This document shows, piece by piece, positions 1-10,169 of a DNA stretch of 11,189 bases. Under the pieces are notes generated by a model. That model saw nothing but the letters and a program-made list of their open reading frames with translations. It made no database searches and was not told the DNA's origin. The stretch spans positions 1 to 11,189 of the forward strand of contig JACQVL010000295.1 of NCBI GenBank assembly GCA_016209865.1, given 5' to 3'. Origin of the DNA: Candidatus Latescibacterota bacterium. Lineage in GTDB: Bacteria > JAAXHH01 > JACQVL01. The first letter of the stretch is position 1. Every line of letters starts with the position of its first letter. A program made the translations under genes and the position numbers.

Positions 1-554
1 GGATGGTTCGGGTCGAGCTTGATGACCCGCTCGAATTCTCTGCGGATGTCGCCGACCGTGAACGCGCCGAATAGTCCCTGAGCGAGGGCCAGGCGGGTGA
101 GGGCAAGCTGCCATTGCGCGTCCACAAAAGTGGGATCCCGCTTCAGCGCCTCACGGAACCAATCGAGCGCGTCGAATCGCCGGTGCTTCCCCTGGAGCGC
201 GACCAGGCCGAGGCCGTAATAGCCGTGCGGGAGCTTCGGGCTGAGGGTGATGATCTGGTAGAACTGGTCACGCGCGCGGGCGGTCTTTTTCTGCTGCGTG
301 AGGGAGAGTCCCAGCCAGTACCTGGCCAGCACCGCTCGTCGGTCCGCCGAGAGGACTTGCTGGAATGTCGCTTCTGCCTCGGCGAACCGGCCCTGGCGAT
401 AGAACGCGAGGCCCTGGTCGTACTGAGGTTTGGCCGCCGGGGGAATGTCGAGACTCCCTTTGGGGAAGAGAAAACAGCCGGTCAGTCCGCAGAGGATGAG
501 GCAAAGGAGAAGAGACGGGATTCGGGGTTCGGGATTCGGGGTTCGGGTGTACAT
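1..554 (-). CDS. TPR-repeat lipoprotein, C-terminus cut by window edge
   Basis: Reading the minus strand from the ATG at 554 gives an open frame of 184 codons that runs off the left edge. The N-terminus has a basic stretch, a hydrophobic segment (LLLCLILCG, about residues 15-23) and a lipobox LTGC with Cys27, so this is a predicted lipoprotein. There is no Asp after the Cys, which fits the outer membrane. From about residue 44 onward it shows tetratricopeptide character: YDQGLAFYRQGRFAEAEATF, then helices ending in LSP, then GYYGLGLVAL and DWFREALKRDPTF. TPR lipoproteins scaffold protein complexes at the membrane; the partner here is unknown. The start lies 19 bases after the stop of the preceding lipoprotein gene, so the two are probably cotranscribed. 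The first residues (TPNPEPRIP) are encoded by a 7-base repeat array, and no good Shine-Dalgarno sequence precedes the ATG, so the exact start is uncertain. Confidence 0.8.
   Translation of the reverse strand, partial: MYTRTPNPEPRIPSLLLCLILCGLTGCFLFPKGSLDIPPAAKPQYDQGLAFYRQGRFAEAEATFQQVLSADRRAVLARYWLGLSLTQQKKTARARDQFYQIITLSPKLPHGYYGLGLVALQGKHRRFDALDWFREALKRDPTFVDAQWQLALTRLALAQGLFGAFTVGDIRREFERVIKLDPNH
517..547. repeat. Heptanucleotide array, GGGATTC/GGGGTTC x4
   Basis: Four units of 7 bases alternate GGGATTC and GGGGTTC, followed by a partial GGG. The array sits at the 5' end of the TPR lipoprotein gene and encodes its N-terminal Pro-rich residues. It is one of several arrays with 7-base period in this window. 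Confidence 0.85.
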
Positions 555-573
555 CAGACAGTATCTCACAATC

Positions 574-1491
574 TCACGGGGAGAACTGTTGTGGGTCCGG
601 GACGCGCCATTCATCCGAGTTGATCGCTTGCGTGGCCAGGTTCAGTACGTCAAGCCGCTGAGCCGAGTCGGATCTCGGGATGAACTCCACAGGAATCGAA
701 AAGACTTGCTGGAACAGCGCAAACCGGCTGGCTGCCCAGACCTGATCGAAGAGTCCGTAATTCAGCCGGATGAGGACGCGTTGAGGTTGAATCGCTCCGC
801 GGGCGTCCACGGTCGCTGCCCATTGCATCGCCGAGATGGAGACCTGGCCGAATTGCGCGCGAACATCCGCGAGGAAACGGTTCCCGGAGCTGTCCGCGTG
901 CGCCATGAACACCTGGCCGTTGACGTCGGCGTACGCGACCGTCTTCCCGTCTGCCGCCAGCGCGGCTGCGTGCGCCCGCCCGTCAACGAGCAGAGTGACC
1001 GGACGGTCGCTGTTCGTCGCCGGGTCGAGGTCTCCTCCGACATCAAGGCCATAGATCGGCCCATCCTCAATATACACGATCGCCGACGGGTTCAAAGCCA
1101 CGATTCCGTCCCGGTTGAGGATGCGCGAGAAGCCGATGGCGAGATGAACACGTGGCGGTCTGACTCCGTCCGTCCGCACGCCGGGAATGAGTCCGAGACG
1201 GGTCACGGTGAGTCGCGTCCCCTTAGGCCGGAGGGCGTACACTCCGGTCTCCTCGAACAACGTCACCGGGCGGCTGTCTCCGGATGACAGGATCGTCCAC
1301 TGGGCCGGCCGCGCCACGTACAGGAAATGTCGGATAAAGACCGTCCGCGTTGCGCTCGATCCCCCTCCCAGAGGGTATTCCACGACGGACACGTTCTGAC
1401 TCGCGTCGATGACCGGGCCGAGCTGGGGGTCAGGACGCACCGCTCCACAGGCGGTCGTCAGGAGAGCCAGGAGCAGATATCGGCTTGTCAC
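574..1491 (-). CDS. Lipoprotein with one WD40/TolB-like strand motif, function unknown
   Basis: A 305-residue protein. The signal sequence is short, with hydrophobic LLLALLTTA followed by Cys15; the lipobox is non-ideal (TTAC) but placed correctly for a lipoprotein. The mature part has no domain I can name with certainty. Around residues 176-207 there is one stretch (AADGKTVAYADVNGQVFM) like the PD40/TolB-type propeller repeat consensus of PDG, hydrophobic pair, DxxG and aromatic. The protein may be a small beta-rich periplasmic domain. The gene overlaps the end of the barrel gene by four bases (GTGA), and GGAGGT at 1498-1503 lies six bases before this GTG. A GTG one codon upstream (1494) is possible but only three bases from that Shine-Dalgarno. 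The tight coupling suggests the lipoprotein is made in fixed ratio with the barrel and may act with it, as surface lipoproteins do with TonB-dependent transporters; that role is inference. Confidence 0.75.
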   Translation of the reverse strand: MTSRYLLLALLTTACGAVRPDPQLGPVIDASQNVSVVEYPLGGGSSATRTVFIRHFLYVARPAQWTILSSGDSRPVTLFEETGVYALRPKGTRLTVTRLGLIPGVRTDGVRPPRVHLAIGFSRILNRDGIVALNPSAIVYIEDGPIYGLDVGGDLDPATNSDRPVTLLVDGRAHAAALAADGKTVAYADVNGQVFMAHADSSGNRFLADVRAQFGQVSISAMQWAATVDARGAIQPQRVLIRLNYGLFDQVWAASRFALFQQVFSIPVEFIPRSDSAQRLDVLNLATQAINSDEWRVPDPQQFSP

Positions 1492-3695
1492 CACCGCACC
1501 TCCACTCCCGTCCAGATCGCCCGCGCGGGGCCGTAGACCCCCTGCGATTGATTCAGCACCGGGTTATCGGGCTGGCCGGTGCTCTCGAACCAGCGAGGGT
1601 CCGGAATGACGTCGAGATTCTGATCGTTCATGAGGTTACGGATTTCACAGAACACCGTGGTTGCCGGGAATAAGGAGCGGAAGGGGAGGGGCACATCAAC
1701 CCGCGCGTCGATCCGGCGCATCCACGGGCCGAACTTGATTCGAGTCGGCTCGTCCGGCCGAACGACGCGCCCGACGTCTGCCGTATGGGGGGCGCGATAC
1801 GGCGTCCCGCTGTGCAGATGGCCGACGGTGGTGATCGTGACCCCGGACCGGAACCGGAGGGTAACGACCGTCGCTACCCAGTGGCGCCGGTTCCAGAAAT
1901 CGTTCACCTGCCGGTCGAACGTGGTGAAATCCCCCAACGTCAGGGGATCGCCGGGGCCGAACGGGTAATCCGTCTCCCGGACGCGGCCTAAGTTGAACAG
2001 GTAGAGGTACGACAGCCGGCCGGACAGCCGGACTCCCGATTTGCCCGCGGGCAGGGACGGGCGGATGAGGATGACTTCCATCCCCCGCTGTTGATGGAGC
2101 CCAGCGTTGATCCGTCCCCAGTAGCCCGGATAATTCGAGATAGTCTGCGGCAGGACTTCCGGACCGAAGACGGGGGGATAGCGTTCGGCATCCCGATAGA
2201 AGGCGGTCACGTCGAGCGTATACGCGCGGCGGCTGAGGCTGATCCCCCCTTCCAGGGTAGTGACCCGCTGCGGCCGGAGCGACGTGATCGACCGGTCGGC
2301 GTACGGGGAGGTCGACTGTTCAGGCGCCGCGTACAGCTCTTCAAAGGACGGAGGATGGGAAGCGACACTGAAGGTCGCGTGCGTCGTCAAGGATCGGTAA
2401 GGAAAAGCCACGGAGATCGCCGGGCTGAGCAACTGTGTGCCCTTCGAGTCACCGCCCGCGGCGAGCAGCAATTGACGCACTGCATCCTGCACGGCGCGCT
2501 CATCCACGAGGGTGCGATAGACATCCCGCCAGACCGCTTTGCCGGGGTCGTAGACCTCATAGCGCAGGGAGAGGCCCATCGCCAGCGCCCAGAAGCGGAA
2601 GCGATCCCCGACGGTCACGGCGTAGTAACGGGGTTGAACCCGGAGATCGAATTGATCCGGGAGGACGGACGGGCGCCATCGTTGCTCCTGACTCAGTCGC
2701 TGCACGGTCACGTCAGCGCCGGCGGTCAGCGTGTGCACCTGATTCGGCTGAAGGGTGAGGTCGACACCGAACGAGAGCGTCCGGGTTGAACGGCGTGCGG
2801 CGAAGACGGGCGTCACCGTGATGGGGAAGAGTCCGTCGAGGAACGGGGGCGGCAGCGGAGAACCTGGGGATGACAGGCTGGACGAATCCGACGGATCGCT
2901 CACCCATTGCGCGGAGAGCGCCCGAACGTGGGCCTGATACGAGAGCGATCGGGTGGGCTGGCCGCCCATGAGGACTTCAAGGCCCCCGGCCCGGGCGCGC
3001 CATGTATTCAGACCTTCCAGCATGTAGCGCGCCCGGTCGGTGTAGACTGTGTTCCCCCGCCTGACATGCCATCCGTTGTCGAGACCGAGGAGCTTGACCG
3101 TCGCACGATGGACTTGAGAGAGCTGGGATGAGAGACGAAAAAGTCCGTCCAGTCGGGCGGTCCGCTGGTTGGGAAACGGCCCCCACTTCTCCCGGTAGCC
3201 GGTGTCAAGACGGTATCCCACGCGCCGGGCCGGGGTGAGGGCGCGTTCAAAGGAACCTCGTATATGCTGAGAGAGACGGGTCGTGCCGTCCTGGTCGTAG
3301 TGATAATCATACGGCACAGGCCTGGTCTGTCCCGGCTGAAACGGCTCCCATTCCCGGTTGCCTTTCAGACGGCGGATGGCGTTGAGGAATCTGGGGTCGT
3401 CGACGACCGACTGGAAGACGTTCGGCCCCGCGTGATTCAGGGGGACGAGGGTGCGTTCATACCGTAAGAATCCCGTCACGTGACGGGCGGGAACGGCGCG
3501 CGCCTCCTGAAGCTCCTCCCGTCCGGCATACCGGGCGGCCAGTGAATCCGCCATCAGGAGGATGTCCCCGTGTTCGGTCGTCGTCGAATCGGCGGCGGAT
3601 TGGACGGCCAGACTCTGGCTCACCTCCTGAGCTGGGCTGAAAGACCAGCCTCCGAGGAGGAGCAGGATGACGCTCACGGTTATCGACATGGTCAT
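1488..3695 (-). CDS. TonB-dependent-receptor-like outer-membrane beta-barrel
   Basis: A 735-residue protein with a Sec signal peptide (about residues 1-22: MTMS, then hydrophobic IL-rich core, then SPA|QE). Alternating aromatic/polar beta strands fill the rest. Motifs typical of TonB-dependent receptor barrels are visible: PPSFEELYA (about 448-456), LRPQRVTTLEGG (about 473-484), LDVTAFYRD (about 494-502), a late strand with the EIRNLMNDQN region, and a C-terminal GVEVRW ending in Trp, as expected of a BAM-recognised last strand. The N-terminal ~115 residues after the signal peptide do not show a recognisable plug domain or TonB box. The family imports large or scarce ligands across the outer membrane. 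I chose the ATG at 3695, not an ATG at 3746, because the longer version only adds translation of a dispersed repeat (SFLRKRESI) ahead of the signal peptide. The SIS gene ends 78 bases upstream. Confidence 0.75.
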   Translation of the reverse strand: MTMSITVSVILLLLGGWSFSPAQEVSQSLAVQSAADSTTTEHGDILLMADSLAARYAGREELQEARAVPARHVTGFLRYERTLVPLNHAGPNVFQSVVDDPRFLNAIRRLKGNREWEPFQPGQTRPVPYDYHYDQDGTTRLSQHIRGSFERALTPARRVGYRLDTGYREKWGPFPNQRTARLDGLFRLSSQLSQVHRATVKLLGLDNGWHVRRGNTVYTDRARYMLEGLNTWRARAGGLEVLMGGQPTRSLSYQAHVRALSAQWVSDPSDSSSLSSPGSPLPPPFLDGLFPITVTPVFAARRSTRTLSFGVDLTLQPNQVHTLTAGADVTVQRLSQEQRWRPSVLPDQFDLRVQPRYYAVTVGDRFRFWALAMGLSLRYEVYDPGKAVWRDVYRTLVDERAVQDAVRQLLLAAGGDSKGTQLLSPAISVAFPYRSLTTHATFSVASHPPSFEELYAAPEQSTSPYADRSITSLRPQRVTTLEGGISLSRRAYTLDVTAFYRDAERYPPVFGPEVLPQTISNYPGYWGRINAGLHQQRGMEVILIRPSLPAGKSGVRLSGRLSYLYLFNLGRVRETDYPFGPGDPLTLGDFTTFDRQVNDFWNRRHWVATVVTLRFRSGVTITTVGHLHSGTPYRAPHTADVGRVVRPDEPTRIKFGPWMRRIDARVDVPLPFRSLFPATTVFCEIRNLMNDQNLDVIPDPRWFESTGQPDNPVLNQSQGVYGPARAIWTGVEVRW

Positions 3696-3700
3696 TATGG

Positions 3701-3720
3701 ATTCCCGCTTGCGCAGGAAT
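3701..3720 (-). repeat. Dispersed hairpin repeat (VIPAQAGI/FLRKRESI type)
   Basis: The sequence ATTCCTGC-GCAA-GCGGGAAT on the minus strand is an 8-bp stem-loop with one U-G wobble in RNA. Its translations (VIPAQAGIH and SFLRKRESI) are familiar spurious peptides from dispersed intergenic repeats in many bacterial genomes. It lies 5 bases before the barrel start codon, where a hairpin in the mRNA could cover the ribosome site or protect the 3' part of the operon message. Confidence 0.75.
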
Positions 3721-3773
3721 GACACTGCAGCAGGGAGGTGTTCCATAGATTTCCGCTGCTCCGCGCGTCCGCC

Positions 3774-4955
3774 TCACGCCCGAACCTGGCTGGCCGCTTC
3801 CCCGATCAGCATCCATAGCGCGGCGGCCTGCACGACGCCGGACGGCGGGACGACGCGGATGTCGTAGCCGGGCACCGCGATGCACGCGTCCCCGTGTTTC
3901 CACCCGCAATCGATCAGGATTTCCTGTGGTCGCGCGATGAACTTTCCCGTCTCGCAGCCGCCCTCCATCCAGATCGAATGCATCCTCGCTTTCCGTGTCG
4001 CCAAGACCAGCCCTTCCGGGAAGTTGTAGTACCCCCAGTACGCGAACGTGTCCTCTTGCTGGAATGCCGCGACCGCCTCGTTCCAGTTCATCCCGTTCAT
4101 GTTAAGGGAGAAGAGTCGAGGGTCTCCCGGCATCCCGTCCTGCGCGGCAAAATAATGGCCGTTGCCGGAGACCCAGACGTGGTGGCCAGAGTCGAGGCTC
4201 TGCGCGATCAGGGCGCCGCTCTGGAAGAAGCGGGGGAGTTGCTGGCTGATCCGGGTAAAACACCGATCCATCTCCGCTAAGAACTGGCCGCCGAGCGCCC
4301 CCGCCACGATGGAGGGAATGGTGATATCCTCATGGAACATCACATCCCGGTAGGCATTATTCCGCGCCCCGCCGCCGGGCATCCCTCCGCTCTGGTACAT
4401 GGCGAGCGTCTTGCCGAGCCGGCTGCAAGCGGCGATCAGTTCGCAGGTGAACACCCACAGCGCCGTGATGTTGGCGATCCCGCCGGTCGGGCACACCTTT
4501 TCCGGCCGGCAGGGGACGGAGAGGACGGGCACGGCGCCCACCGGCAGCCCGTTGTCGATCAGGATATCCGCGTGGTCGCAGACGGGGGAGACGGCGGAGC
4601 CGAACAGGACGACTAACGCGCCCTGCTCACGGAAGGCGTCGAGTTCCCGCGCCTGTTGCTCCGGGTCGTTGTTCAGCGTCCCGGCCAGGATGACGTCCCG
4701 GTTCGTGAGCGTGGTGGTCTGGTATTCCCGGCGGTTTCGGATCTGCCGGATGCCCCCGGACCGGCCGGTCGCCTCAGAGACGAACCCCGGCTCGTCGGCG
4801 ACGGCGTAGAGGCTCCCGCCCGCGACTAACCGTTCCGCGCCCTGCTCCGACGCCGCCACGATCGACGTCATGAGGCTTCCCAGTCCCGTCAGGTTTTCTG
4901 TGATCGCTCGAAGATACTGAGTCGCTGGTCGTTCGTTGTTCACATGCGCTGTCAT
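3774..4955 (-). CDS. Tandem SIS-domain protein, putative sugar-phosphate binding or isomerase
   Basis: A 393-residue protein that appears to consist of two sugar-isomerase (SIS) modules. Module 1 (about 20-205) has GGSLYAVADE (47-56), SEATGRSGG (60-68), ILIDNGLPVG (131-140), CPTGGIANITALW (155-167) and SGGMPGGGARNNAY (189-202). These line up by eye with the COG4821-type SIS pattern (fEA-RaGG, DN-P-GDA, gP-S-i-gaf-N, S-N-PGG-N). Module 2 (about 225-390) has SGHHVWVSGNGHYFA (256-270), ILIDCGWKHGDACIAVP (346-362) and PPSGVVQAAALW (370-381), echoing module 1. SIS domains bind phosphorylated sugars in isomerases, lyases and regulators; which applies here is open. The start at 4955 is preceded by AAGGAG 11 bases upstream. 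A longer reading from 5000 only translates a repeat array. Placement between the enolase-superfamily gene and the barrel gene suggests a catabolic role for an imported sugar. Confidence 0.7.
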   Translation of the reverse strand: MTAHVNNERPATQYLRAITENLTGLGSLMTSIVAASEQGAERLVAGGSLYAVADEPGFVSEATGRSGGIRQIRNRREYQTTTLTNRDVILAGTLNNDPEQQARELDAFREQGALVVLFGSAVSPVCDHADILIDNGLPVGAVPVLSVPCRPEKVCPTGGIANITALWVFTCELIAACSRLGKTLAMYQSGGMPGGGARNNAYRDVMFHEDITIPSIVAGALGGQFLAEMDRCFTRISQQLPRFFQSGALIAQSLDSGHHVWVSGNGHYFAAQDGMPGDPRLFSLNMNGMNWNEAVAAFQQEDTFAYWGYYNFPEGLVLATRKARMHSIWMEGGCETGKFIARPQEILIDCGWKHGDACIAVPGYDIRVVPPSGVVQAAALWMLIGEAASQVRA

Positions 4956-4978
4956 CGGTGTGAGTGCTCCTTGTTTGA

Positions 4979-4999
4979 GGTCCCAAGTCCCAGGTCCCA
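4979..4999. repeat. Heptanucleotide array, GGTCCCA/AGTCCCA x3
   Basis: Three 7-base units (GGTCCCA, AGTCCCA, GGTCCCA) followed by a partial AGT lie in the 109-base gap between the enolase-superfamily gene and the SIS gene, just before the SIS start. Confidence 0.85.
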
Positions 5000-5031
5000 A
5001 GTTAGCAAACGCTGCACACAGAACTGTTCTT

Positions 5032-5063
5032 ACCGACTACTGACCACCGATCACCGACCACCG
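5032..5063. repeat. Heptanucleotide array, ACCGAYC x4
   Basis: Units ACCGACT, ACTGACC, ACCGATC and ACCGACC, plus a partial ACCG, repeat every 7 bases directly after the stop codon of the enolase-superfamily gene. The units are less regular than in the other arrays. Confidence 0.7.
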
Positions 5064-5064
5064 C

Positions 5065-6201
5065 TTATTTCCGGCACCGCGTGATGACCTCTTGATTGAG
5101 GGGCAGGCCGAGTCCAGGCCCCTGGGGAACGTGGTACAGACCGCCGGCGATCCGGGGCGGGTGTTCGGGCAGTTCGTACCAGAGGGGGTCTCGTTTCCGG
5201 TTGGCGAAGATTTCCACGTAGCCGCCGCGTGGAGAAGATGCCAGGAGGTGAGCGGCAACCTGGGGTTCCTCATGGTGTCCGATCGTGAGGTCGAAGCACT
5301 CCGCCAGGCCCGCGATCTTCCGCCATTGGGTGATGCCGCCGACCATCGTCACGTCGGTGTTGATGATGTCGACCGCGCCCCGGACGATCAGGTCGCGCAT
5401 CCCCTGCCGCGAGACCTCCCCCTGGCCGGAGGTCACCCGGAGGCCGGTCGCCTCCCGGACGCGCCGGAGGCCTTCGACGCAGTCGTACCACGCCACCGGC
5501 TCCTCCAGCCAGGCGATGTTGAGCGGGGCCACCGCCCGCCCGAACGCGATCCCATCCGCGACGCTCCAGCCCTGGTTGGCGTCGCAGGCGATGACGAAAT
5601 CCGGCCCGCCTGCCTCCCGGACAACCCGGACGCGTTCCAGGTCGTGGGTGAGCGTCGCCCGTCCCACCTTCATCTTGAGGCCCGCCACCCCTCTCGCCTT
5701 GCACTCCGCCACCTCGTCCGCCAGCGCGGTCGTCGAGCCGTCTTTACTGTAGTACCCCCCGATGGAGATCACCGGAAGCGTCTCGCGGAATCCCCCTAAG
5801 AGCTTGTAGAGCGGCTGACCGGCGGCTTTCCCCAGAACGTCCCACAGGGCGATGTCGACGGCGGCGATCGCCTGCATCCGGATGGCATGACGGGCGAGGT
5901 CGAGGGCGTGCAGGCCGCGGTTCCCTAAGTCGATCGGGAGCGAGCACATCGTCTCGTTCAGCGCCTCGACCATGAACGGGTCCTGGCCCAACAGCATCGG
6001 GCGCAGGTAGTCGGTGATCACCCGGACGATCTCATCCTGGTACAGGTCCTCATCCCCGCCGTACGTCTCCCCGACCACTCCGTCATCGGTCACGACGCGG
6101 ACGACGAGGGTATTCCGCGCCTTGATGACGTATGTCCCGCCCAGAAACGCCTCAGGGAGGGGCAGGACGAGGGGGATGGGCTGGAGATCGACGATCTTCA
6201 T
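5065..6201 (-). CDS. Mandelate racemase/muconate lactonizing enzyme family protein
   Basis: A 378-residue enolase-superfamily protein of normal family length. The N-terminal capping domain (about 1-125) is followed by the modified TIM barrel. Visible active-site set: K176-x-K178 (GLKMKVG), metal ligands D207 (CDANQGW), E233 (WLEEPV) and E262 (SGQGE), D283 (INTDVTMVGG) with H309/H310 (TIGHHEEP), and E330 (YVEIF). This is the mandelate-racemase-type pattern, with a KxK base on one face and a His-Asp dyad on the other. Such enzymes abstract the proton alpha to a carboxylate; members include sugar-acid dehydratases and racemases. The exact substrate cannot be told from these residues. It is the first gene of the minus-strand operon, 66 bases from the -10 box of a strong minus-strand promoter. 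No clear Shine-Dalgarno precedes the ATG, but the N-terminus MKIVDLQPIPL matches the family. Confidence 0.9.
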   Translation of the reverse strand: MKIVDLQPIPLVLPLPEAFLGGTYVIKARNTLVVRVVTDDGVVGETYGGDEDLYQDEIVRVITDYLRPMLLGQDPFMVEALNETMCSLPIDLGNRGLHALDLARHAIRMQAIAAVDIALWDVLGKAAGQPLYKLLGGFRETLPVISIGGYYSKDGSTTALADEVAECKARGVAGLKMKVGRATLTHDLERVRVVREAGGPDFVIACDANQGWSVADGIAFGRAVAPLNIAWLEEPVAWYDCVEGLRRVREATGLRVTSGQGEVSRQGMRDLIVRGAVDIINTDVTMVGGITQWRKIAGLAECFDLTIGHHEEPQVAAHLLASSPRGGYVEIFANRKRDPLWYELPEHPPRIAGGLYHVPQGPGLGLPLNQEVITRCRK

Positions 6202-6213
6202 GGCAGAGAATCG

Positions 6214-6241
6214 GTGACCAGTGACGAGTGACGAGTGACGA
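6214..6241. repeat. Heptanucleotide array, GTGACSA x4
   Basis: Units GTGACCA, GTGACGA, GTGACGA, GTGACGA followed by GTAAA. It lies in the predicted 5' leader of the minus-strand operon, 12 bases before the start codon of the enolase-superfamily gene. The last units and the trailing GTAAA recur at 8923-8941. Confidence 0.9.
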
Positions 6242-6266
6242 GTAAAGGCATAAGAAAGTATCCGCT

Positions 6267-6295
6267 ATTCTATGGTGTTGTGCTGCGAAAGTCAA
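6267..6295 (-). promoter_or_regulatory. Predicted sigma70-type promoter of the minus-strand operon
   Basis: On the minus strand, TTGACT (6295-6290) is followed after exactly 17 bases by TAGAAT (6272-6267). This is 5/6 match in each box with the ideal spacing. Transcription would start near 6260, giving a leader of about 60 bases that contains the GTGACGA array, then the enolase-superfamily gene. Confidence 0.65.
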
Positions 6296-6331
6296 CCCCG
6301 TTCTACGGTTTGATCGCGTGAGGATGATGGT

Positions 6332-6345
6332 CTCATAAGAATGAG
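6332..6345. promoter_or_regulatory. Possible operator: CTCAT-AAGA-ATGAG inverted repeat
   Basis: A perfect 5-bp inverted repeat with a 4-base centre lies between the two divergent promoters, ending one base before the plus-strand -35 box. Position and symmetry fit a regulator binding site, but short repeats of this size occur by chance and no regulator gene is in the window. Confidence 0.3.
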
Positions 6346-6346
6346 C

Positions 6347-6375
6347 TTGACAGGCGGTCGTGCGGTTCTTAGAAT
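6347..6375 (+). promoter_or_regulatory. Predicted sigma70-type promoter of the plus-strand operon
   Basis: TTGACA (6347-6352, perfect) and TAGAAT (6370-6375, 5/6) are separated by exactly 17 bases. Transcription would begin near 6382, leaving a leader of roughly 170 bases before the epimerase start at 6554. The -35 boxes of this promoter and the opposing one are about 50 bases apart, so one regulator could control both. Confidence 0.7.
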
Positions 6376-6390
6376 CACCAATAACACTTT

Positions 6391-6479
6391 TCACTCGTCA
6401 CTTGTCATTCTGAGCGAAGCGAAGAATCTCGTCGTTCAGAAGACCCTTCGCTTCGCTCAGGGTGACATTGGGTGAGTGA
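6391..6479. repeat. Large imperfect inverted repeat (dispersed intergenic repeat)
   Basis: Arms at 6403-6424 and 6446-6467 are 22 bases each and complementary except for two positions, with a 21-base loop. An outer pair TCACTC (6391-6396) / GAGTGA (6474-6479) extends the structure. The inner arm GAGCGAAGCGAAG is the core of a repeat often seen in intergenic regions of diverse bacteria. The left outer part, read on the minus strand, is the same GTGACAA/GTGACGA heptad motif found elsewhere in the window. In the predicted epimerase-operon leader it would fold into a long hairpin starting about 10 bases from the 5' end of the RNA. Confidence 0.8.
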
Positions 6480-6553
6480 TTCTTAGAATTTCACTTCGGT
6501 CATCTCGTCGTCTTGTTCTGTCATTTCACCCTGCATCAAGAGGAGACCTGGCC

Positions 6554-7354
6554 GTGAAGATCGCCCTGCAAGAAGGTTTGCTGCCCGGTGATTCGTTGGA
6601 CGAAAAGCTCGATTTCGCGGAATCGTTGGAGATCGAAGGACTGGAGGTGTCGGGATGGAGCAAGCCGTATGAGCGTGTCAAGGAGTTAGAGAAAGCCTTA
6701 AAGGGACGGCGCATCACATTCGCGTCCGTCTGCGGGCAGTCGACTTTCGACTTCCTCGACCCCGACCCGGCGAAGCGGAGAGCGAGCATCGAGGAGTCCA
6801 AGCGGAACCTCGACGTGTGTGCCCACTTCGGCGCAGTGGGACAGATCGTCGTGCCGATCTTCGGCGGACCACGCCTCCCGGACCTCTCTCCTTACTTCGA
6901 CGTGATCGAACTGGAGAAACAGATCTTCGTTGAGATCACGAAGGAACTGGCCGCGTACGCGGCTGACCGGAAGACCCTGGTCCTCCTGGAACCCCTCAAC
7001 CGGTACGAGCAGCACCTGCTCCGCCGGCAGGACGACGGGGTGGAGATCATCAAACGGGCGGGCGATCCCCCCGGAGTGAAGCTGTTGAGCGATTTTTTCC
7101 ACATGCACATCGAAGAGACGAGCACCCCCGATGCGTTCCGGCGGGCGGGGAAGTACGTCGGACACGTCCACATGGCGGACAACACGCGCCAGCAGCCGGG
7201 GACGGGGGACATCGACTGGCGAGCCGGCCTGGGGGCGCTGAAGGAGGTCGGGTTCACCGGCTATCTCGCCTACGAGTGCGGGATCGCGGGCGAGCGGAAA
7301 GCGGCGCTCAAGCAGTCGGTCGAGTTCATCCGGAGGATTATTAAGGGCTTGTGA
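6554..7354 (+). CDS. Sugar phosphate isomerase/epimerase-like TIM-barrel protein
   Basis: A 266-residue protein of the xylose-isomerase-like/AP-endonuclease-2 TIM-barrel family. Expected metal and catalytic residues are visible: E146 (LLEPLNRYE), D180 and H183 (LSDFFHMH), H206 (GHVHMADN) and E241 (YECG), matching the Glu-Asp-His-Glu divalent-metal set of D-tagatose 3-epimerase and related ketose or inositol enzymes. R150 and E152 follow the first Glu as in the family. It probably interconverts a ketose, keto-inositol or related polyol; substrate unknown. I chose the GTG at 6554 because AAGAGGAG (6538-6545) sits 8 bases upstream and the product starts with the barrel's first strand (MKIALQEG). 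An ATG at 6476 would add unstructured residues encoded partly by an intergenic repeat. It is the first gene of the plus-strand operon; the next gene starts 26 bases after its stop. Confidence 0.88.
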   Translation: MKIALQEGLLPGDSLDEKLDFAESLEIEGLEVSGWSKPYERVKELEKALKGRRITFASVCGQSTFDFLDPDPAKRRASIEESKRNLDVCAHFGAVGQIVVPIFGGPRLPDLSPYFDVIELEKQIFVEITKELAAYAADRKTLVLLEPLNRYEQHLLRRQDDGVEIIKRAGDPPGVKLLSDFFHMHIEETSTPDAFRRAGKYVGHVHMADNTRQQPGTGDIDWRAGLGALKEVGFTGYLAYECGIAGERKAALKQSVEFIRRIIKGL

Positions 7355-7380
7355 AGATAGGGTGAAAAGGGGAAAAGGCG

Positions 7381-8100
7381 GTGACCGACACCGAACGATA
7401 CGCCTTCGCCATGAATGGCTATCTGACGATCCAGAATGCGCTCTCTGTAGAAGAAGTCGCTGTCCTTAACAACGCGCTGGATCGGGACTTCACGCAGCGC
7501 CGGGAGACGTATTATAGCCGAGGGGATGGCACCCATCAGAGCGTCCGGGTGATGGAAGTCGAGACGGCGTTCGACGCGCTGATCACCCATCCGTCCACGT
7601 TCGAGATGCTCCAGGATCTGATGGGAAAGAATATCGCGTTCTCGGAGCTGTCTGTCATCATCAAGGAGCCGCATACTGACAGCCATGCCGGCTGGCATAA
7701 GGACGCAGGGTACTCAGGGGTTGATCTGACACGCGCGCTCCTGATGATCTCCTCGATCTTCTACCTGACGGACGTCCCGCCGGGTGGGGCGTGTTTCACC
7801 GTCGTCCCGGGAAGTCACCGGTTCGACTGGCCGATGCCGAAAGTGAGTCACCTGGATGAGATGCCCGGTCAGGTCGAGCTGACGGGCAACGCGGGGATGG
7901 CGATTCTCTTCAACGCGAACCTGTGGCACTGTGCCAAACCGAATCGTGCTGACCTCTGGCGGAAGACGGTGCATCTGTATTACTGCCATTCCTGGATGAA
8001 GCCCAGCGGCCATACGAAGTTTCCACCGAGGCTCCTGGAGGCGGCAGATACGCCGTTTCTGAAACAACTCTTCCATACGAATTGGGGAGCGGTGAAGTAG
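7381..8100 (+). CDS. Phytanoyl-CoA dioxygenase (PhyH) family Fe(II)/2-oxoglutarate oxygenase
   Basis: A 239-residue protein with the PhyH-type double-stranded beta-helix signature. The iron-binding triad is H106 and D108 (GWHKDAGY) and H183 (LWHCAKPN), with R194 (WRKTVHLYY) placed to bind 2-oxoglutarate. The family motif GGACFTVVPGSH (136-146) and the N-terminal NGYLTIQNAL also fit. Such enzymes hydroxylate or otherwise oxidise small molecules using O2 and 2-oxoglutarate; bacterial members act on many substrates, not only phytanoyl-CoA, so the name gives the fold only. It starts with GTG, preceded by AAAAGGGG (7365-7372) 8 bases away. Position between the epimerase and SDR genes suggests it acts in the same pathway. 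Confidence 0.9.
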   Translation: MTDTERYAFAMNGYLTIQNALSVEEVAVLNNALDRDFTQRRETYYSRGDGTHQSVRVMEVETAFDALITHPSTFEMLQDLMGKNIAFSELSVIIKEPHTDSHAGWHKDAGYSGVDLTRALLMISSIFYLTDVPPGGACFTVVPGSHRFDWPMPKVSHLDEMPGQVELTGNAGMAILFNANLWHCAKPNRADLWRKTVHLYYCHSWMKPSGHTKFPPRLLEAADTPFLKQLFHTNWGAVK

Positions 8101-8161
8101 GAGGGCGATTCGTCGCGCCCACTCGGCCTCGTCAAGGAGGAAGACAGGAAAGGAGTCATCG

Positions 8162-8893
8162 ATGGGGAAACTCGACGGCAAGGTGGTGCTCGTGACGGGC
8201 GCCAGCCGGGGGATTGGCCGGGGGATCGCGCGTGGATCGGCGCGTGAGGGCGCGAGCGTCGTCTTAGCCGCGCGCGACACCGCCAGGCTGCAGCAGACGG
8301 CGGACGAAATCATCGCCCTGGGCCGGGCGGCGCTGGTCGTCCCGACGGATGTGACGGACGAGCAGCAGGTCGAGACGCTGTTCAGCCGGGCGATGGATCG
8401 GTTCGGCCGGCTGGACGTCCTCTACAACAACGCGGGCGCGTTCAACGGCGGGCCGATCCATGAGTTATCGGTGGCGGACTGGGATCACGTGATCGCGGTG
8501 AACCTGCGCGGCCCGTTCCTCTGCACCCGGCAGGCGTTCCGGATCATGAAGCCACAGGGCGGCGGCCGGATCATCAACATCGGGAGCATCTCGGCCCAGC
8601 GGGTTCGCCCGCATTCCGCCCCGTACAGCACGAGCAAGCACGGCATCTGGGGGCTGACGCAGGTGACCGCCCTCGAAGGCCGCGAGTACGGGATCGTCTG
8701 CAGTTGCCTCCATCCCGGCAACGTCTTGATCGAGCGCCGGGCGGCGAGCGCCGCGACCCAGGATCAAGAGCCGATGATGTCGATCGATGAGTTGGCCGAG
8801 GTCGCGGTCACGATGGCGACTCTCCCGCCTCACATGAACATGCTGGAAGCGATCGTCCTGCCGGTGCAGCAGTTGTATATTGGGAGAGGATGA
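8162..8893 (+). CDS. Short-chain dehydrogenase/reductase (SDR) family oxidoreductase
   Basis: A 243-residue classical SDR. It has the dinucleotide-binding TGASRGIG (12-19), DV at 63-64 (PTDVTD), NNAG (89-92), catalytic N114, S142 (INIGSIS), Y155 and K159 (YSTSK), and the PG motif (HPGNV) after the active site. It oxidises an alcohol or reduces a carbonyl with NAD(P)(H). The A-A-R-D stretch after beta-2 (about 36-39) hints at NADP(H) because of the Arg, but this is weak. AAAGGAG (8149-8155) lies 6 bases before the ATG. It is the third gene of the plus-strand operon. Within this locus it may oxidise a hydroxyl made or exposed by the neighbouring enzymes. Confidence 0.92.
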   Translation: MGKLDGKVVLVTGASRGIGRGIARGSAREGASVVLAARDTARLQQTADEIIALGRAALVVPTDVTDEQQVETLFSRAMDRFGRLDVLYNNAGAFNGGPIHELSVADWDHVIAVNLRGPFLCTRQAFRIMKPQGGGRIINIGSISAQRVRPHSAPYSTSKHGIWGLTQVTALEGREYGIVCSCLHPGNVLIERRAASAATQDQEPMMSIDELAEVAVTMATLPPHMNMLEAIVLPVQQLYIGRG

Positions 8894-8908
8894 AAAGAGG
8901 GAAAGGCA

Positions 8909-8936
8909 GTGACGAGTGACAAGTGACGAGTGACGA
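8909..8936. repeat. Heptanucleotide array, GTGACRA x4
   Basis: Units GTGACGA, GTGACAA, GTGACGA, GTGACGA followed by GTAAA, 15 bases after the SDR stop codon. It is nearly the same as the array at 6214-6241 and in the same orientation. Confidence 0.9.
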
Positions 8937-8944
8937 GTAAAAGC

Positions 8945-9011: not shown

Positions 9012-10169
9012 TCATCCCCATCCCTGAAGGGAGGGGCTTGACCCTGCCGCCTGGCCCATCCGCTCGGGGAGCGCACAGACCAGGGGCGAGTCTTCAGGCT
9101 GGATTACAGCAGCCCCGACTGCGGCAATGGTCTGTGCTCCGTTGAGATCGGCGTCACAGGCACGACCGCAGTGTGAACAGACAAACGCTTTCCCGTGGCG
9201 GGAGCCGAGATGGAAACACGCGGCGCAGGTTTGCGAGGTGTAGCGCGGATCAACGACGACGAGCACCACACCGGCTAGGGCCGCCTTATACTCGATAAAG
9301 GCTCGGAGCTGGGCGAACGCCCAGGAGGTGTGCAGACCGCGTTGAGATTTCCGAACCGTAGTCCGGGCGCGAATGCCCGTCAGATCTTCCAAGGCAATGC
9401 CGCGTCCGGTGTCTTTGGCTGTCTCAACGATCTGCTTGCTGATCGTGTGGTTGATCCAGGTCTGGTAGCGTCGTTCTTTGCCAGACAGGCCCTTGAGCAC
9501 ACGTCTGGTATTCTTTCTCGTCGATCGGGATCGGGTGTTTCCCTTCGCTTGCAACGATTTCCTGACCTTCTGTCGTCTCAGTCGGTAAGCACTCAGAGTT
9601 ACGCTGCCGAACGTGGGCCCGTCGGATGTGGTGGCAATCTCGGTGATGCCCAGATCGACCCCCAGGAGCGCCGTCACGTCAGCGGGCGAGGGATCGATCA
9701 CGGTACAGGTGGCCAACAGGTAGAAGGTGCCCTTCACGAGCACCAGATCACTTTCGCCCTGTCGAGTCCGAAGGAGTTGGTGTTGGCGTTCACCGCAGAC
9801 GAACGGCATGCGATGCCGCTTCCCATCGGCCCAGATCGAGACTTCGTCCTGATCCAGATACCATCGAAGAATCCGATCATCGTAGGCAATGGACCCATGC
9901 CGTTTGAACGTGCGTGGTCGTGTCCGGTCCAGCTTATAGGCATCGGCCACTTTGGCGATACAGCGGACGCCCATCTGGGCTGTCAGACCAAACCGGACCT
10001 TGACCTCCCGATAGACGCCCTGATGGATGGCATACTGCCCAAAGGTCTGGTGCTGCCAGGCCCAGGCCGCAATAGCGGTACAGGCACGGTTGGCCGTTTC
10101 CAGCGTCTTGGTCAGCGCAGCCGCCTGATCGGGCGTGGGAGCGAGTTTGACTTGGGCGGTGAGTTTCAT
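9012..10169 (-). CDS. tnpB: RNA-guided endonuclease TnpB, IS200/IS605 family
   Basis: A 385-residue TnpB of normal length that looks intact. The RuvC-like catalytic residues are D172 (LLGVDLGITE), E261 (GIALEDLTGIR) and D341 (CDADLNGAQ). The zinc finger is C315-x2-C318 and C331-x2-C334. The N-terminal MKLTAQVKLAPTPDQ is the usual TnpB start. In known systems TnpB uses an RNA from the element's right end to cut DNA next to a transposon-specific motif, favouring retention of the element. I chose the ATG at 10169; a longer open frame from 10439 only runs through the left end and antisense to leuC. The stop codon lies about 4 bases from the predicted element end, so the coding sequence overlaps the whole right-end hairpin. 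The gene is opposite to its neighbours. Confidence 0.92.
   Translation of the reverse strand: MKLTAQVKLAPTPDQAAALTKTLETANRACTAIAAWAWQHQTFGQYAIHQGVYREVKVRFGLTAQMGVRCIAKVADAYKLDRTRPRTFKRHGSIAYDDRILRWYLDQDEVSIWADGKRHRMPFVCGERQHQLLRTRQGESDLVLVKGTFYLLATCTVIDPSPADVTALLGVDLGITEIATTSDGPTFGSVTLSAYRLRRQKVRKSLQAKGNTRSRSTRKNTRRVLKGLSGKERRYQTWINHTISKQIVETAKDTGRGIALEDLTGIRARTTVRKSQRGLHTSWAFAQLRAFIEYKAALAGVVLVVVDPRYTSQTCAACFHLGSRHGKAFVCSHCGRACDADLNGAQTIAAVGAAVIQPEDSPLVCALPERMGQAAGSSPSLQGWG
9016..9036. repeat. Right-end subterminal hairpin of the tnpB element
   Basis: CCCC and TCCC (9016-9019 and 9021-9024, A9020 bulged) pair with GGGAGGGG (9029-9036) across a TGAA loop. It lies inside the last codons of tnpB and 8 bases from the predicted right end. 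Confidence 0.7.

Follow-up and report, generated by a model that had tools for sequence, protein, structure and literature searches.

Intergenic heptamer arrays in a Candidatus Latescibacterota genome as candidate arms of small mobile hairpins

Bacterial heptanucleotide repeats have been known for decades, and slippage has been given as their source. Mazel is said to have described in 1990 the heptanucleotide STRRs, mostly intergenic arrays of period 7 of which one genome has several units, and Elhai reportedly described in 2008 the SDR elements of Nostoc punctiforme, tiny dispersed folded repeats that often sit inside heptamer arrays and occur as nested insertions.

A proposal of polymerase slippage for period-7 repeats (Mrazek 2007) is cited in two later papers (PMC4679880 and PMC4692102). 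For the GGGNATC repeats of Xanthomonas, one study describes outward placement, 70 to 75 facing pairs, conserved positions, and a G-quadruplex reading (Rehm et al. 2015, PMC4692102). The heptamer-armed stem-loop P6b of the Nostoc trnL intron has been replaced whole several times by the other repeat class, with its fold kept (Kaasalainen et al. 2015, PMC4476775), arrays of TAACTGA direct repeats have been described in marine Beggiatoaceae (MacGregor 2015, PMC4679880), and the genome of Geobacter metallireducens holds multicopy elements of four tandem heptamers (PMC2700814). The results presented here give a testable alternative to slippage, namely, hairpin elements with swappable heptamer arms whose sites are kept.

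Heptamer arrays in the window and its genome

The window, the whole stretch of 11,189 nucleotides that was analyzed, is one contig (C263) of a 3.75-Mb genome bin that has 356 contigs and is 83% complete. A sequence-only reading of this DNA had named five period-7 arrays and a partial reversed one. TRF recovered the five within a few bases of the positions given there, the reversed partial array is present in the sequence, and every one of them sits between genes or at the edge of one, as had been claimed.

516-547, plus strand: heptamer array TCGGGRT, 4.6 units (TRF, census), at the 5' end of or just upstream of a minus-strand gene, overlapping the 5' end of one called ORF, with the G-rich strand directed away from the gene
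4980-5002, plus strand: heptamer array GTCCCAA, 3.3 units (TRF), upstream of the minus-strand gene at 3774-4955
5031-5063, minus strand: heptamer array CGGTGGT / CGGTGAT, 4.6 units (TRF), directly 3' of the stop codon of the minus-strand gene at 5065-6201
6214-6243, plus strand: heptamer array GTGACSA, 4.3 units (TRF), 12 bases upstream of the start of the same minus-strand gene (5065-6201) and reading away from it
6391-6407, minus strand: short reversed GTGACRA array (TCACTCGTCACTTGTCA; from the sequence), the facing partner of 6214-6243 in a divergent spacer
6404-6467, no strand: imperfect palindrome GTCATTCTGAGCGAAGCGAAGAATC...CCTTCGCTTCGCTCAGGGTGACAT (from the sequence and the spacer listing)
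8908-8938, plus strand: heptamer array AGTGACG/AGTGACA, 4.4 units (TRF), 14 bases past the stop of the plus-strand SDR-like gene at 8162-8893 and reading away from it

The other rows returned by TRF for the window have about two copies each. Our own scan recovered four of the five arrays, that at 4980-5002 falling below its threshold, and found nothing at periods 4 to 6 or 8 to 12; second-order Markov shuffles of the window gave 0.003 period-7 arrays per shuffle. The arrays at 4980-5002 and 5031-5063 face each other across the spacer 4956-5064. Although C-rich, the GTCCCAA family probably reads in the plus direction of its array, given that its left-arm reading, AAGTCCC, matches that of a left arm in a Pyrinomonadaceae locus (L099). 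Related copies of the palindrome lie between facing GTGACRA arms at two further places in the same genome (L045, 7729-7928, and L049, 4427-4628). For the array at 8908-8938, no partner was seen between it and the TnpB gene at 9012.

The window has other features. The TnpB-type (IS200/IS605) gene at 9012-10169 (minus strand), shortly past the 8908 array, stands alone, with no recognizable TnpA adjacent, and its best plasmid relatives are Bacteroides TnpB proteins at 48% identity. A dRS3/ATTCCC-like palindrome, GGATTCCCGCTTGCGCAGGAATGAC, lies at 3699-3723 upstream of a receptor-like gene; palindromes of this type recur in host hairpin loops, with about 20 copies in 616 kb. By look, from names assigned by eye to ORF translations, 5065-8893 is a catabolic cluster of enolase/mandelate-racemase-like, sugar-isomerase-like, phytanoyl-CoA-dioxygenase-like, and SDR genes.

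For a census of the host genome, we sampled 60 contig stretches in addition to the window (616 kb, 16% of the genome); about one-quarter of the sampled contigs were chosen for GTGACRA matches, so that densities are somewhat inflated, while periods and layout should be unaffected. The comparison of periods with shuffled controls that the sequence-only reading had proposed gave 146 period-7 arrays versus 4 in Markov shuffles, a net of 142 versus about 0 given that a constant 4 per row, shuffles included, represents runs of N. Periods 4 to 6 and 9 to 13 were at or near background, period 8 showed a small excess (17 versus 4), and periods 14 and 21 were also raised, as multiples of 7. The view that one period holds across differing units is borne out, and the genome-wide excess of period 7 is large. 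In DNA that is 89% coding, 129 arrays were intergenic, 24 partly genic, and 21 genic by the calls of a home-made gene caller. Given this avoidance of gene interiors and the period-7 excess, what we found is the opposite of both outcomes that had been named as counting against the reading, i.e., no excess of period 7 over other periods or arrays equally common inside genes.

Period-8 arrays (AACGTTYG/AACGTGYC, GCAGGGGA) occur in the host at L037 14520-14557, L046 2149-2232, L070 52-135, and L080 6231-6261, some of them paired face to face, as though there were a sister class of 8 nt.

Read on the G-rich strand, the commonest unit families are AGTGACG (58, plus variants), CGGTGGT (24), AAGGACG (17), GGATTTT (13), CAGGGGT (12), CGGGGTT (7), and AGTGAAG (6), followed by many rare ones. 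Array lengths peak at 24 to 25 and 30 to 33 bp and seldom exceed 5 units. The units, first described as mostly unrelated, are not all single cases. GTGACRA is present at two places in the window and at hundreds across the genome: three consecutive copies with at most one mismatch were found at 457 places. The same query had no match in any of 28 other genomes, of which 15 belong to the order of the host; relatives compared with the host comprised these 15 genomes of the order and none of the same family, the next ones sharing only the domain. In 137 kb from two order-level relatives there were no period-7 arrays, where about 32 would be expected at host density.

A separate repeat family, TGGGCAATGGGCAGTGGGCAGT, lies at L040 4327, L042 4457, L062 2151, L065 3249-3295, and L085 9523, with long shared flanks such as CCGCCGGGCAGG, and is clearly a single element, dispersed within the host's own genome.

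The host arrays are not independent microsatellites. Their G-rich strand points outward from the nearest gene in 121 cases and inward in 41 (p 2e-10), both at gene 3' ends (68 outward, 19 inward) and at 5' ends (53 and 22). Outward arrays 3' of a gene start mostly within 10 nt of the stop codon, and those 5' of a gene lie mostly 12 to 40 nt upstream of the start, at about the onset of the ribosome-binding site. Arrays were present in 11 of 16 convergent, 62 of 173 co-directional, and 2 of 26 divergent spacers. Among the 30 spacers with at least two arrays, 24 contain exactly two that face each other (“><”), mostly with a common unit in both, and none shows the order “<>”. A single array is all that is present in 101 of the 131 array-bearing spacers; a shortened inverted partner was detected on the inner side in 20 of 61 such spacers, a direct partner in 0 of 61, and no partner in the 41 others tested. 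Long inverted repeats occupy 42 of 215 host spacers, versus 0 in shuffles and 0 of 21 spacers in order-level relatives. Their 5' arm has more G than C in 34 of the 42, and over four genomes G exceeds C in the 5' arm of 106 hairpins and C exceeds G in 11.

In the forward reading, host arrays have A-rich flanks on both sides. Layered spacers also occur, in which an outer CGGTGGT arm and an A-rich link precede a GTGACRA arm around a GTCATTCCCGCGAAAGCGGGAATC palindrome. Arm status was shown for about half of the testable host spacers; because arrays are often single and loops diverse, some of those in the host may be eroded remnants or of another nature. The loops of the host differ except for a common GTCATTCCCGC core, which is why whole-element copying is best shown in other genomes. 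Within one element, the two arms resemble each other in variant order no more closely than do arms taken from separate elements of that family, so that covariation is absent at the fine scale. Arm-to-arm covariation was also dropped as proof of selection on the fold, as it was not seen within families and an apparent signal in mixed phyla was gone within one genus (p 0.11).

Hairpins and orthologous spacers in other phyla

A scan of GTGACGAGTGACRAGTGACGA over 84,980 species returned at least 115 matching stretches, with Chloroflexi, Acidobacteria, Nitrospirae, Verrucomicrobia, Bacteroidetes, Gammaproteobacteria, and others among the matches listed. The 115 listed stretches contain 338 period-7 arrays, about half of which carry other units, and they show the same polarity as the host (144 outward versus 27 inward, p 2e-20), for GTGACRA (76 and 13) and for other units (68 and 14). 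Besides GTGACRA variants, eight unit families are common to the host and other phyla, versus 2.2 expected from letter-shuffled units (p 0.0005). A query with a Nostoc-type array had no match. GTGACRA also matched 33 IMG/VR contigs classed as viral (L206-L238), with 110 period-7 arrays in all; these carriers may represent pieces of host DNA or elements borne by prophages.

Acidobacteria contain dispersed copies of whole hairpins with their loops. We compared three Pyrinomonadaceae genomes, G029 (BP_17), G030 (BP_15), and G050, which represent three related species of one genus. A 4.3-kb query matched 117, 123, and 82 places in them, respectively, and most matches were 70 to 110 bp, i.e., single spacer hairpins. 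Aligned copies share both arms and loop, with a loop like ATAGAGAAAACCTGCTTTCTTCTATTC in the GTGAATC element and like AAGTTAAAGCAGCACTCCGGTCTTTAAACTTGTCTT in the GTGACRA element. Another copy spanning the whole loop exists for 30 of 35 two-array hairpins, a count that includes possible orthologous copies in sister genomes; most have at least nine such matches, too many for orthologues. In a second acidobacterium, G032, an ATTGCGG element of about 77 bp is found at more than 40 places. The dispersed copies in Pyrinomonadaceae and G032 are, like MITEs, bounded by terminal inverted repeats.

Orthologous spacers show that sites are kept while sequences change. Between G029 and G050 (88% mean protein identity), 29 spacers have a hairpin in both genomes, 8 in one only, and 36 in neither, so that 29 of 37 are kept, yet the arm unit is similar in just 7 of the 29. 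In the closer pair, G029 and G030 (97% protein identity), hairpins occupy 13 spacers in both genomes, and 7 of the 13 are similar. Examples of swaps are GTGAATC versus GTTTCAR; GTGACRA versus a GTTGTCA-type unit versus GTAAATC; and GTGACRA versus GTGATGA versus AACGATG. Given that both arms change unit together between species in the alignments and that the new element, in the cases inspected, has the loop typical of its own family, a swap looks like replacement by a copy rather than drift. One nested case (G029:C13, about 91.2 kb), in which a GTCAATC/GTGAATC element lies inside a GTGACRA element's loop, suggests a route by which an element would insert into a loop and the outer arms would then be lost. 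Among the orthologous spacers, one possible empty site was seen.

Proposed mechanism and rival explanations

We consider it probable that a large share of the arrays are arms of small mobile hairpins that insert into existing hairpins between cistrons or take their place; the remaining arrays are probably remnants of such arms. The element would be a hairpin of roughly 60 to 200 bp that fills the space from a stop codon to the gene that follows, with one common layout for many unit families: an A-rich edge, a 3- to 5-unit heptamer array (G-rich strand), a loop, the inverted array, and a T-rich edge. A putative enzyme would move these elements as hairpins, of DNA or RNA, preferentially into or in place of intercistronic hairpins that are already there, and they would be kept because a hairpin just past a stop codon is tolerated or useful, e.g., for stability or processing of the mRNA 3' end. 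The swap results come from Pyrinomonadaceae and the whole-element results from Pyrinomonadaceae and G032, lineages other than that of the window; by analogy, the scheme may hold for the window's genome too. A wider version, in which mobile heptamer-armed hairpins enter or overwrite intercistronic hairpins in many phyla, the sites staying occupied as sequences move around, with no need for a RAYT-type transposase or a reverse transcriptase, is tentative, and we hold it to be doubtful.

Replication slippage with a preference for 7 nt, building arrays in situ where selection allows, i.e., in spacers, is the published proposal (Mrazek 2007), and it accounts for the specificity of period 7 and for the concentration of arrays outside genes. 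We nevertheless regard it as improbable. It predicts neither the polarity nor the facing pairs of the same unit, nor the sharp cap near 5 units or the simultaneous replacement of both arms, and 137 kb from two order-level relatives lacked the roughly 32 period-7 arrays expected at host density; loop-bearing dispersed copies, also not predicted, already strain it. Microsatellite slippage alone was accordingly rejected on polarity, facing pairs, and loop-containing copies. Slippage fixed at 7 nt does not predict polarity and pairing, dispersed hairpins, or swaps, and movement of whole hairpins does. The sequence-only reading, which had favored a shared generating mechanism such as slippage over the spread of one element, is therefore supported in part: what it said of period and position stands, but unit families are dispersed in high copy with polarity and facing same-unit pairs, whole hairpins with their loops are repeated in another phylum, and both arms swap unit together.

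Selection for functional RNA or DNA structures, such as bidirectional terminators, RNase III processing sites, or mRNA-stabilizing sites, is quite possible, although we would not place it at even chances, and it is compatible with mobile hairpins. Sequence would then turn over as only the fold matters, and heptamer repetition would ease the rebuilding of an arm. Conservation of the site despite sequence turnover speaks for such a function, as do the A-rich and T-rich edges, the 3' location, and the distribution over spacers, convergent ones being richest in arrays and divergent ones poorest; the trnL intron P6b offers a parallel in which two heptamer classes have been interchanged and the fold kept (PMC4476775). 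As far as sequence can tell, the location, edges, and conserved sites fit a role in termination, processing, or mRNA stability. However, roughly half of the co-directional Pyrinomonadaceae elements have the next start at a distance of 16 nt or less, which leaves a promoter no room and makes strong termination unlikely at those sites, and function alone leaves copies with family-specific loops unexplained. A known RNA family was also considered and set aside, as Rfam returned no match over the gathering threshold in the window, L132, L267, L075, or L045.

REPIN/RAYT-type elements, inverted pairs mobilized by a Y1 transposase, share the outline of short inverted intergenic pairs with singlets as remnants (PMC3116915), and Y1_Tnp genes are present in some carriers (G032 and G046). 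This explanation is very unlikely: the arms are tandem heptamers rather than a single REP palindrome, and no Y1_Tnp (RAYT) match was found in the genome bins of the host (G000, 83% complete), G029, G030, or G031, all of them array-rich. Nor was RVT_1 detected in the genome bins of the host, G029, G030, G050, G031, G032, or G035 (Chloroflexi). Spread by RAYT or by reverse transcriptase was consequently rejected, several heavily loaded genomes being without Y1_Tnp or RVT_1. Least probable of all is that the arrays are G-quadruplex elements, as proposed for GGGNATC repeats. Some units have G3 tracts (CAGGGGT and TCGGGGT) and about four units are common, but the commonest families, GTGACRA, CGGTGGT, AAGGACG, GGATTTT, and GTGAATC, have no G3 tract and show the same layout and polarity, which makes G-quadruplexes unlikely as a general explanation.

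Comparison with known systems

Heptamer arrays, facing pairs in Xanthomonas, and swaps of repeat class at one Nostoc intron are already published. The genome-wide swapping of entire heptamer-armed hairpins at fixed spacers, with many units and outside cyanobacteria, was not found described in the literature available to us and appears new. A similar layout is seen in the GGGNATC repeats of Xanthomonas and Nostoc, in which, as in the host arrays, the G-rich strand points away from the gene and facing pairs occur (PMC4692102). That paper, however, has one unit family per organism and reports neither orthologous sites with swapped units nor dispersed copies that contain the loop, and a G3 tract in every unit is a trait of GGGNATC repeats that the host units GTGACRA, CGGTGGT, AAGGACG, and GGATTTT lack. 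The heptanucleotide STRRs and long SSRs are likewise mostly intergenic arrays of period 7, with several units in one genome (Mrazek 2007, as cited in PMC4692102 and PMC4679880). With them the host arrays share at least three tandem 7-nt units in numbers above chance and the mostly intergenic position. Heptanucleotide STRRs are known from heterocystous cyanobacteria, and the host is not a cyanobacterium by gene content. In the literature available to us, STRRs and long SSRs are taken as simple repeats that slippage produces, and hairpin pairing or an element nature is not described.

The trnL P6b stem-loop of Nostoc, with its Class I and Class II heptamer repeats, is also a heptamer-armed hairpin at a fixed site (PMC4476775, PMC3488679), but it is a single intron locus, whereas here the same behavior extends over many protein-gene spacers. 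The TAACTGA repeats of Beggiatoaceae resemble the present arrays as intergenic heptamers near start codons, scattered across phyla; that paper finds related heptamers rare or absent and reports one indirect repeat only (PMC4679880). The elements of Geobacter metallireducens are multicopy tandem heptamers, as here, but were read as regulatory RNA, and some lie inside genes (PMC2700814). REPINs are dispersed inverted-pair mini-elements between genes in which the inverted pair is the repeated unit, yet they have single palindromic REP arms and a RAYT transposase (PMC3116915), and no RAYT was found in several carriers here.

The SDR elements of Nostoc punctiforme, reportedly 21 to 27 nt long and not heptamer-armed, differ from the hairpins described here. 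If our interpretation is right, it links the heptamer reports from Xanthomonas, Nostoc, Beggiatoa, and Geobacter with the puzzling class switches of trnL P6b and points to a novel route by which very small DNA elements spread.
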